Below the pieces are notes generated by a model, which was not told the DNA's origin, did no database searches, and saw only the letters and a program-made list of their open reading frames with translations. Positions 19,730-41,611 of a stretch of 49,732 nt of DNA are shown piece after piece. Numbering within the stretch: position 1 is the stretch's first letter; every line of letters begins with the position of its first letter. Origin of the DNA: a virus. The stretch spans positions 1-49,732 of IMG/VR virus record IMGVR_UViG_3300008267_000219; one strand, 5' to 3'. The position numbers and the translations under genes were made by a program.

Positions 19730-20473
19730 ATGCCACAGATATTCAAAGTTGGAGGATGTATAAGAGATGAAATTCTTGGGATAGAATCTAAGGATATTGA
19801 TTTCACATTTGTCCTAGATAACCTAGATAGAACCGTAGAAGAAGGATTTGAAATAATGACTAAGTGGCTAGAACACAAAGAATTTACTATATTTCTTTCT
19901 ACCCCAGAGATGTTTACTATCAGAGCAAAATTTCCTAAGGGAGATCTTAATGAAGGACTGGTAGCTGATTTTGTTCTTGCAAGAAAAGAGGTAGGATACA
20001 AGGAAGGAACAAGACAGCCCATTCTTGAGCTAGGAACTCTTGAAGACGATCTAATCAGAAGGGATTTTACCCTCAATGCAATGGCAGTTGACTACGATGG
20101 TAATCTAATAGATTTATTTGGAGGTAAGGAAGATTTGGAAAAAGGTATATTGAGAACTCCATTAGATGCACATATTACTATGATGGATGATCCTTTGAGA
20201 ATTCTAAGAGCTTTAAGATTTAGTATTACAAAAGGATTCACGATAGACGATTCAATCTGGGTAGCTATACACAGAAAACGTAATCCACAAATCCTAGAAA
20301 AATTAGAAAAGGTTGTTTCTGCAGAAAGAATTAGAGAAGAAGTTTTTAAAATGATGAAAGCTGATACTGTTAAAACATTGGAGTTATTCAGGGAAGTTGA
20401 AGATACCCTACCTGGATTTACCGCCTTGGTATTTGGTAGAGGACTTTGGTTAAAACCAACATTTGAATTATAA
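19730..20473 (+). CDS. cca: tRNA nucleotidyltransferase (CCA-adding enzyme), short form
   Basis: 247 residues. Class II nucleotidyltransferase head: VGGCIRDEILG, the catalytic pair in KDIDFTF, then RRDFTLNAMAVD, DPLRILRALRF and the neck motif SAERIREE. The body and tail domains of the usual 400-residue enzyme are missing. It restores or adds CCA ends to tRNA-like RNAs. The phage tmRNA 2 kb downstream has no encoded CCA, and neither does the tRNA-like element at 24368, so both would depend on this or the host enzyme. A poly(A) polymerase of the same superfamily is the alternative. Confidence 0.87.
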   Translation: MPQIFKVGGCIRDEILGIESKDIDFTFVLDNLDRTVEEGFEIMTKWLEHKEFTIFLSTPEMFTIRAKFPKGDLNEGLVADFVLARKEVGYKEGTRQPILELGTLEDDLIRRDFTLNAMAVDYDGNLIDLFGGKEDLEKGILRTPLDAHITMMDDPLRILRALRFSITKGFTIDDSIWVAIHRKRNPQILEKLEKVVSAERIREEVFKMMKADTVKTLELFREVEDTLPGFTALVFGRGLWLKPTFEL

Positions 20474-22324: not shown

Positions 22325-22510
22325 ATGAAAAGATTTTTCTTTGCTATTTTTGTTTCTTCAGCTATTTTAGTTTCTTCTTGTTCAGGAAACGAAGCTACAG
22401 GAAATGCTACTGAAAATGCAACTACTGCAGCTACAGCTGATGCAACAGCAGAATCAACTGCTAACTCTACAGCGAACGTAACAGTTGATGCTGATTCTAC
22501 TTCTAAGTAA
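22325..22510 (+). CDS. Low-complexity lipoprotein
   Basis: 61 residues. Signal peptide MKRFFFAIFVSSAILVSSC with lipobox L-V-S-S-C, then a mature part made almost only of A, T, N, S, E and D (GNATENATTAATADATAEST). Likely a disordered, lipid-anchored surface or lumen peptide. It is the first gene of the unit that ends with the tmRNA. Confidence 0.7.
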   Translation: MKRFFFAIFVSSAILVSSCSGNEATGNATENATTAATADATAESTANSTANVTVDADSTSK

Positions 22511-22519
22511 TAGAAGAAA

Positions 22520-22545
22520 GTCGAGAGATAAACGTATCTCTCGAC
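22520..22545 (+). terminator. Perfect 11-bp hairpin between lipoprotein gene and tmRNA
   Basis: GTCGAGAGATA pairs with TATCTCTCGAC over the loop AACG. There is no T run afterwards, so it may be a transcript-end or processing hairpin that helps release the tmRNA 5' end 16 bases downstream. Confidence 0.5.
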
Positions 22546-22561
22546 TATAAACAAAACTATT

Positions 22562-23001
22562 GGGCCTGTTTTTGGATTTGACGGGTGAAGGTAGTTCTTT
22601 GAAATGCAGGCCGTGTTAGATGGAAACACGATAATCACCTATCAAGCTATAAACGCAAACACATATAACACAGAGGATATGATGAGTATCCCAACTTCAA
22701 TTACAGCACCAGTTGTTGTGGCTGAAGAGGTAGAGTCGCTATTGGCAGCTTAACCGGCGGGTCTCGCTTACCTAGGAACAGAAAGGCGATGGTGGAGTCG
22801 GACCTATCATAAGGTCCAATGGAAATTCGGTTCATACCGAAGAGTACGATGACTGAGCGGTTTAAGTCATAAAAAGAAACGCAAAAGTTTGGTAGGATCT
22901 AAAACTACATAGTTTGTTCATTTAGAAAAAATGAACTAAGCCTGTGAATGAGTTTTATTGGGCATTCATTACGGACGAGCGTTCGAGTCGCTCCAGGTCC
23001 A
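22562..23001 (+). ncRNA. ssrA: Transfer-messenger RNA with a long tag frame
   Basis: 440 nt. The 5' end GGGCCTG pairs with CAGGTCC at 22994-23000, leaving discriminator A at 23001 and a G3-U70 pair, the alanine identity element. GGATTTGACGGG near the 5' end is the conserved tmRNA D-loop region. The T arm is GAGCG-TTCGAGT-CGCTC. GCAGGC (22606-22611) pairs with GCCTGT (22940-22945) as the long helix, and a CGTGTT/AACACG hairpin fits the first pseudoknot. The tag frame resumes at GCA 22655 and ends at TAA 22751. It encodes 32 residues starting ANTYNTED and ending EEVESLLAA, much longer than usual but with a ClpXP-type LAA end. CCA is not encoded. Confidence 0.93.
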
Positions 23002-23007
23002 CTTTCT

Positions 23008-23039
23008 AACCCCTCCTTAAAAAGAGGGGTTTATTTTTT
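23008..23039 (+). terminator. Rho-independent terminator of the tmRNA
   Basis: AACCCCTC pairs with GAGGGGTT over an eight-base A-rich loop and is followed by a T-rich tract ending in six T residues. Confidence 0.88.
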
Positions 23040-24468: not shown

Positions 24469-24906
24469 ATGGAAACATTAATATTCGTTCTGGGTATTCT
24501 CTGTGGGGCAGTTCTATTAGGGATTGCTTACGTTATTAGGGAATTGCTTAGGGTAAAAGACGAGATCAAAACTCTAAAGAAAAACAAATATGTATACAAT
24601 GATAGATTTTTAGTATTGGAAGATGATATTAAAAAGATTTCAGATAATATGGAAATACCTATATCCAAATTACACCAAGAAATCAAGGAAAGGCATTCTC
24701 ATTTACATTCGAGAATAGAAGAAGCCAAATCCAAAAATTGGGAAGATTCTGACCGGATGTTTCAAGAACTTCACCGTAGGATTGACAAAGAAGTAAAAGA
24801 TTTTAACTCTTTGGTGGATTCAAGATTAAATAAATTAGAAAATAAATTTGTAAAATTTGATTTATTAAATCCTGCTACCGGAGAAATTAAAAGTAAAAGA
24901 CAATAA
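24469..24906 (+). CDS. Membrane-anchored coiled-coil protein
   Basis: 145 residues. One N-terminal membrane segment (LIFVLGILCGAVLLGIAYVI) followed by a long charged helix with heptads (KDEIKTLKKNKYVYNDRFLV onward). It faces the cytoplasm if the basic side is inside. Function unknown; the layout is typical of small phage spanin-like or scaffold-like proteins, without further proof. Confidence 0.65.
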   Translation: METLIFVLGILCGAVLLGIAYVIRELLRVKDEIKTLKKNKYVYNDRFLVLEDDIKKISDNMEIPISKLHQEIKERHSHLHSRIEEAKSKNWEDSDRMFQELHRRIDKEVKDFNSLVDSRLNKLENKFVKFDLLNPATGEIKSKRQ

Positions 24907-40873: not shown

Positions 40874-41611
40874 ATGAATTTTTACATCTATAAAATAACT
40901 AATCTTATAAATAATAAGATTTATGTTGGTCAAAGAATTACTAATAATGATATTTTGAAAGATAATTATTTCGGATCGGGAAAACTAATAAAAAGAGCTA
41001 TAGAAAAATACGGATTGGAGAATTTTTCTAAAGAAATATTAGAAGTTTGTACACGGGAATCTATTAATGAAAGGGAAATATTTTGGATTAAGGAAAATAA
41101 ATCTATGGATTCTTCAATAGGATATAATATAGCAAAAGGGGGAAATGGGGGAGATTTATTGACTAATAATCCAGATAAAGAAAATATTTTAAAGAGGATG
41201 TCAGAGTCTATGAAAAATAGAATTTTTTCAGAAGAGCATAAGAGAAAATTATCGGAAGGTAAGATAGGAGAAAAAAATCCTATATACGGGAAAAAAATGT
41301 CTGATGAAGAGAAAGAACACCTCAGCAAAATTATAAAGGGAAGGAAAATGTCTGATGAATTCAGAAAAAAAGTATCTGAAGGAAAAAAAGGGGTTAAATT
41401 TTCAGAAGAGCACAAAAGAAAATTGTCCGAAAACCATGCAGATTTTAGAGGATATAAACATAGCGAGCAGAGCAGAGCTAATATGAGTGCGGGGAAAAAA
41501 GGTAAACCTTTAAAAAAACCACACATGTGTAAAAATTGTGGAAGGTATATTTCAACTATACACAATCTAAACAAACACTATAATAAATGTATTAAAAATG
41601 AAAATAAATAA
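40874..41611 (+). CDS. GIY-YIG homing endonuclease
   Basis: 245 residues. GIY-YIG motif as FYIYKI and KIYVGQR (residues 3-21), then the catalytic arginine-containing helix and E of REIFWI. The middle holds several NUMOD3-type repeats (SEEHKRKLSEGKIGEKNPIY, SDEFRKKVSEGKKG). The end is a C2H2-type finger, CKNCGRYISTIHNLNKHYNKC without its last residues counted. Segment-type homing endonucleases of T4 have the same plan. It lies two bases upstream of the NAMPT-like gene and is probably a mobile insertion. Confidence 0.92.
   Translation: MNFYIYKITNLINNKIYVGQRITNNDILKDNYFGSGKLIKRAIEKYGLENFSKEILEVCTRESINEREIFWIKENKSMDSSIGYNIAKGGNGGDLLTNNPDKENILKRMSESMKNRIFSEEHKRKLSEGKIGEKNPIYGKKMSDEEKEHLSKIIKGRKMSDEFRKKVSEGKKGVKFSEEHKRKLSENHADFRGYKHSEQSRANMSAGKKGKPLKKPHMCKNCGRYISTIHNLNKHYNKCIKNENK

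Follow-up and report, generated by a model that had tools for sequence, protein, structure and literature searches.

The window, by which is meant the whole 49,732-nucleotide stretch of viral DNA analysed (IMG/VR record IMGVR_UViG_3300008267_000219), carries a phage tmRNA gene with a tag of 32 residues. The tag peptide is under selection, and its reading frame is dual-coded, because the selected codons also form three covarying hairpins. The commonest tag length is given as 10 in the available text of the 2025 tmRNA database paper (PMC11915505), so this tag is three times as long as usual. The initial annotation had recognized the RNA and its long tag; the hairpins and the wide occurrence of long tags in large phages go beyond it. 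Coordinates of the features are given in Table 1.

The gene is a tmRNA by every feature of sequence and structure that is decidable in this analysis. The covariance-model search proposed with the initial annotation gave a full-length match to RF00023 (window 22562-23004, plus strand, model positions 1-374 of 374, 91.9 bits, E 1.5e-34; cut-off 47 bits), the sole Rfam match to reach its cut-off anywhere in the window. ARAGORN, run on the window, called no tmRNA. The sequence reads as an acceptor stem GGGCCUG/CAGGUCC (22562-22568/22994-23000), and the alanine identity pair G3-U70, which had been claimed earlier, was found as G22564-U22998. The T arm is likewise present, and its loop carries UUCGA. 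The first pseudoknot (PK1) is present upstream of the GCA, at a distance of 11 nt rather than the ten bases first given, and relatives have the same layout. Its signature, GTTAGA..GGAAA..ACCTATCA, is common to 15 other phage contigs. The region of PK2-PK4 fits the Rfam model poorly; local stems are predicted there. The 3' CCA is not encoded, the discriminator A at 23001 being followed by CUU. A gene of the CCA-adding nucleotidyltransferase type sits 2.1 kb upstream, and its product may be a source of the missing CCA. The 5' end of the tmRNA is preceded by a perfect 11-bp inverted repeat (GTCGAGAGATA-AACG-TATCTCTCGAC, 22520-22546), and this in turn by a small lipoprotein-like gene (22325-22510).

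Table 1. Positions of the tmRNA gene, its parts and associated features in the window.
Feature	Position	Strand	Basis
CCA-adding/polyA polymerase-type nucleotidyltransferase	19730..20473	+	PF01743 (1.4e-20), PF12627
One-piece tmRNA (ssrA) gene, 5' end to discriminator A	22562..23001	+	RF00023 match and sequence
Acceptor stem, 5' strand GGGCCUG	22562..22568	+	Sequence
Pseudoknot 1, CGUGUU/AACACG plus GAUGG/CUAUC	22612..22643	+	Sequence reading
Resume codon GCA	22655..22657	+	Alignment with relatives; ARAGORN calls in L107 and L112
Tag reading frame ANTYNTEDMMSIPTSITAPVVVAEEVESLLAA, 32 codons plus TAA	22655..22753	+	Sequence and alignment of relatives
Conserved tag core EDMMSIPTS	22673..22699	+	Pattern scan of viral contigs
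Hairpin a in tag frame, GGAUAU-GAUGA-GUAUCC	22675..22691	+	Covariation counts
Hairpin b in tag frame (CUUCA.UUAC ... GUGG.UGAAG)	22695..22727	+	Synonymous compensatory changes at two pairs
Hairpin c, tag end directly before the stop codon	22734..22750	+	Covariation analysis
T arm GAGCG-UUCGAGU-CGCUC	22977..22993	+	RF00023 match and sequence
Likely intrinsic terminator, CCCCUC..GAGGGG then T-rich run	23008..23038	+	Sequence

The tag is read as first proposed, from the GCA at 22655 through 32 codons to TAA at 22751-22753, and its C-terminus, ...ESLLAA followed by UAA, combines a hydrophobic end with the stop. Relatives carry GCA, GAC, GGC or GGA where the window has the resume codon in the alignment. 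A resume codon at a later GCA (about 22706), which had been named as the outcome that would overturn this reading and would leave 15 residues, is ruled out: EDMMSIPTS, upstream of that point, is kept as peptide sequence, and in the relatives L107 (ANVYNAEDMMSIPTSITRVAVAEEAELLMAA) and L112 it is the homologous long tag that ARAGORN reports. The earlier stress on the segment TAPVVVAEEVE was misplaced, since the strictly conserved part is the preceding core, (Y)N-x-EDMMSIPTS-(I/L)-T, and the APVVV insert is shared by the tag of the window with that of L118 alone.

Conservation of the tag was tested at the level of codons. In the EDMM lineage the differences at codon positions 1, 2 and 3 number 870, 898 and 1557, counts which, like those of covariation below, draw largely on related sequences and are not independent events. 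The synonymous fraction of codon changes versus the consensus is 0.436, compared with a mean of 0.189 and a maximum of 0.26 in 300 simulated runs with equally many changes at random sites; the other two frames give 14% and 9%. Pro, Thr and Ser codons vary synonymously, and L116 writes EDMMS as GAA GAC ATG ATG TCT versus GAG GAT ATG ATG AGT. The core nucleotides are identical in 16 of 17 sequences, several synonymous sites included.

In canonical tmRNA a helix generally holds only the last codons of the tag. Hairpins a-c of the tag frame pair in 90.6% of the cells across 16 sequences. Double changes occur in 10 of the 22 hairpin pairs, and the double-changed cells number 24; shuffled controls have 8.0 (0/500) and slid ones 1-9. 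In two pairs both partners change between synonymous codons: Ser TCA/TCT is matched by Ala GCT/GCA, and Ile ATC/ATT by Val GTG/GTA. The tag frame of the FEDAM family contains covarying hairpins too. Its middle hairpin shifts register between GAUGC/GCAUU and AAGAC/GUCUU without loss of EDAM(A/S)F, which is weak evidence because chance pairing there is 25-38%.

The EDMMSIPTS core and long tags are spread over many phage contigs. The blastn search with the tmRNA of the window touched four uncultured huge-phage records: the tag of LR756501 (735 kb) has the same core (GDYKMNAEDMMSIPTSLTGKVATESFVEDLVLA), LR756502 and LR745206 have 29-residue tags with REDIVSALQNNM / REDLVAALQNNM, and the tag of LR756504 has 24 residues. 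When 2.9 million viral contigs were scanned with a degenerate EDMMSIPTS pattern, 14 matches resulted, all at tmRNA tags; the same pattern had two matches in 84,980 bacterial and archaeal genomes, neither in tmRNA-like surroundings. A tag-blind scan for the PK1 pattern found 15 contigs with the PK1 type of the window (13 new), with tags of 14-32 residues that include the types EDIMSIPTS, EDMMSILTS and LDVMNIMES, which are variants of the core, as well as FEDAMAFVG and (F)DIDENFLDTASVEV. A second tag-blind scan used a 3'-end pattern ignorant of both tag and PK1 and reached at least 120 contigs. Among the matches listed, tags were readable in 112 loci and 76 were distinct; their lengths are two-peaked, 19 having 10-17 and 57 having 23-33 residues. 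Long tags are common in this large set of aquatic phage contigs, which often exceed 100 kb. Tag calls in the scans were made with custom regular expressions, and 19 of 20 sampled loci are above the Rfam cut-off. ARAGORN likewise gives the long tag at many loci (e.g. L107, L112, L164, L165, L174, L178, L171, L176 and L181), gives a truncated tag in L118, L192 and L161, misses some others, and reported no tmRNA on L008-L010. Phage tmRNAs are probably under-reported, because the program misses genes or shortens tags in part of the set.

Most long tags contain a segment that reads hydrophobic-(E/D)-D-hydrophobic-hydrophobic-(S/A/N)-(F/I); one expression, written after the tags were seen and thus descriptive rather than a test, fits 48 of the 76 distinct tags among the matches listed. 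The tags of most relatives end in AA and some in ELV, ATV, LVLA or EVA; those of L112, L121 and L008 are without the AA end. Tags of ordinary, short length also occur in some large phages, such as that of 10 residues in LR756500. Two patterns were discarded: the first long-tag DNA pattern had two chance matches that are not tmRNAs, and the first tmRNA pattern found mostly permuted tmRNAs with short tags. Public phage records searched by tblastn gave no match to window-type, FEDAM, VWDVIN or FDI tags, which for the window-type tag reflects the limit of short queries, as the collection includes LR756501; with the REDL tag, the only records matched were the two Mahaphages it came from.

Members of the EDMM lineage have about 70-83% identity in the alignable parts of the tmRNA and share no neighbouring genes in the flanks compared, so the tmRNA appears to be mobile among genomic contexts. 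Similar ORFs resembling GIY-YIG homing endonucleases (assigned by appearance) lie directly downstream of the tmRNA in 8 loci, including L119, L162, L171, L217 and L115, about 100 bp past the 3'-end pattern, and may perhaps aid movement of the gene. Record G059 (380 kb) has two tmRNA genes (82619-82990 and 327939-328335) with the different tags GNEFDIDENFLDTASVEVGTGEVAFA and GNILENATVGHFVAEDAAVVA. LR756501.1 carries a group I intron (RF00028, 96 bits; L010 1747-1978) in the T loop of its tmRNA. Some phage tmRNAs of the long-tag or a related type have a GOLLD RNA (272-312 bits; L093 675-1089, L168 1372-1790, L222 962-1384) no more than about 0.4-2 kb away.

The source record is a 49.7-kb virus fragment with genes for class I ribonucleotide reductase, DNA polymerase pieces, UvdE, DnaJ, a RimK-like protein, PhoH and RNase HII. 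The large reductase subunit has hundreds of IMG/VR relatives, of which the best 80 are 82-86% identical on contigs of up to 304 kb, and its closest named relatives are from Tenacibaculum and Cellulophaga phages. The carrier is likely a large phage of Bacteroidota; genomes above 634 kb are predicted to have Bacteroidetes hosts in the available text of the 2020 huge-phage paper (PMC7162821). No relatives were found via the 306-aa protein encoded downstream of the tmRNA. A NUMOD3/GIY-YIG homing-endonuclease-like gene (40874-41611) lies directly upstream of a nicotinate phosphoribosyltransferase-like gene. Near the tmRNA, positions 24469-24906 encode a small membrane-anchored coiled-coil protein, which resembles the L120 ORF located between clpP and the tmRNA (32% identity, E 4e-7, maybe coiled-coil bias).

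Genes of the Clp system were found near the tmRNA in sister lineages. The gene clpP is directly upstream, on the same strand, of five tmRNAs with the FDIDENFL tag, which have an FKBP-type isomerase gene just downstream, and also of two tmRNAs with the LDVMNIMES tag, in which case the end of clpP roughly coincides with the 5' end of the tmRNA. A Clp-type AAA+ ATPase is encoded 2-3 kb upstream of the tmRNA in G013 and G017 (tags GNVLNKME...SEVTVA). Neither clpP nor a Clp ATPase was found in the window, and no clpP adjacent to the tmRNA was found in its EDMM lineage; G051 of this lineage has a partial ClpP match 30 kb away. The link to Clp is thus borrowed from sister lineages, because no such neighbours occur near the tmRNA in the window's own lineage. 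Lon protease is absent from 25 of 25 records. SmpB is encoded in all four Mahaphages above 630 kb searched, LR756501 among them, and in G060, G061 and G064; it was not found in the larger EDMM-lineage records G051, G054 and G057, all of them fragments.

The reading that we favour, with moderate confidence, is a working large-phage tmRNA with a bipartite tag, having a core for docking, an LAA end for Clp protease, and hairpins for compaction. The RNA would be alanylated, presumably following addition of CCA, and with SmpB (possibly that of the host; some related huge phages have their own) would enter ribosomes stalled on broken mRNA. Translation would resume at GCA 22655, add 32 residues and terminate at UAA. 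The phage-specific core, EDMMSIPTS in the window and FEDAMAFVG, VWDVINMFG, LDVMNIMES or REDLVAALQ in sister lineages, is probably where an unfoldase or adaptor docks. The end ...LLAA looks like a normal protease tag with an SsrA-type (L)AA and could serve a ClpXP-type protease; by analogy with the clpP and Clp ATPase neighbours of other tag lineages, we infer ClpXP degradation as the destination of the tagged products. The hairpins would keep the long frame compact within the tmRNA ring. In sum, a phage-owned trans-translation would recycle ribosomes and send products to Clp proteolysis during infection. More tentatively, and with rather less than even expectation, the long lineage-specific cores (EDMMSIPTS, FEDAMAFVG, VWDVINxFG, FDIDENFL and others) may be addresses of a private trans-translation code, written in a hairpin-encoding frame; Clp machinery or other receptors encoded by the phage would read them, and what is made from broken mRNAs would be routed by the rules of the phage and not of the host.

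It is also conceivable, although unlikely, that length was selected for RNA architecture: the hairpins would provide stability, compaction or nuclease resistance, and the peptide would be tolerated, with only the terminal LAA of importance. Covarying hairpins in two tag families agree with this, as does the identity of core nucleotides even at synonymous sites. However, L116 differs in its codons and its hairpin although EDMMS is kept, synonymous variation occurs at Pro, Thr and Ser codons, and the FEDAM hairpin changes register with the peptide retained, though chance pairing there is not rare. A similarly doubtful and slightly less probable proposal is a counter-host or decoy tmRNA, which competes with host tmRNA and whose tag is poorly read by host proteases or leads to another fate (stabilization, membrane, virion or phage nucleus). 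The lack of any tmRNA among the prokaryotic matches to the core pattern and the tags without an AA end are compatible with it, and in phage DS6A a tmRNA made up of the TLD only is inhibitory to that of the host according to the available text of PMC11915505 and PMC4131195. Most tags, however, keep the hydrophobic AA end. In three tag lineages the phage encodes ClpP or a Clp ATPase close to its tmRNA, and phages of other lineages encode SmpB; both speak for normal rescue and proteolysis.

Internal initiation at AUGAUG (22679), yielding a free micropeptide MMSIPTS...LLAA, is very improbable and was rejected. There is a GAGG just upstream of AUGAUG, but the residues before it (YN-x-ED) are equally conserved, L116 is without GAGG, and the FEDAM and FDI families are without such a start. 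Tag lengths vary among bacteria. An ordinary drift to a long, meaningless tag might appeal to this and to the 2-residue tags on record in the available text of PMC11915505; it has next to no probability, being contradicted by the codon-position and synonymous excess and by the core conserved across many contigs. Of the two options left by the initial annotation, new function or drift, the latter is therefore dropped, and tagged peptides may conceivably be redirected to a non-proteolytic fate.

The favoured working tmRNA shares with bacterial one-piece tmRNA (ssrA, RF00023) the tRNA-like domain with its G-U alanine pair, PK1, a resume codon after (U/A)AAAC, the hydrophobic tag end and the UAA stop. 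It differs in the 32-residue tag (commonest length 10 in the available text of PMC11915505), the conserved internal core, the three covarying tag-frame hairpins and the poor PK2-PK4 fit. The Mahaphage tmRNA/SmpB systems, as far as the available text of PMC7162821 describes them, are akin through the core of LR756501. Bacillus phage G also encodes a tmRNA, and has clpP and a Clp ATPase close together in its genome, but its tag (AKLNITNNELQVA, 13 residues) is without an EDMM-type core. The intron of LR756501 recalls the group I intron-bearing tmRNAs in the available text of PMC11915505, whereas the tmRNA of the window is without an intron. The available text of that database paper includes 79 phage tmRNAs and describes no long phage tags, and that of the huge-phage paper (Al-Shayeb et al., PMC7162821) treats tmRNA and SmpB, found with ARAGORN, as translation genes and leaves the tag unmentioned. 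No earlier report of these long tags was found in the open-access literature, subscription papers being outside the scope of the search.

Nearly all bacteria have trans-translation, the tag of which is regarded as a short degron. The occurrence in large phages of tags of up to 33 residues, with a conserved core, a dual-coded frame and, in some, Clp neighbours, suggests that a phage version of this quality control has evolved in them and raises the question of what reads the conserved core. If true, host protein quality control would have been rebuilt by phages.
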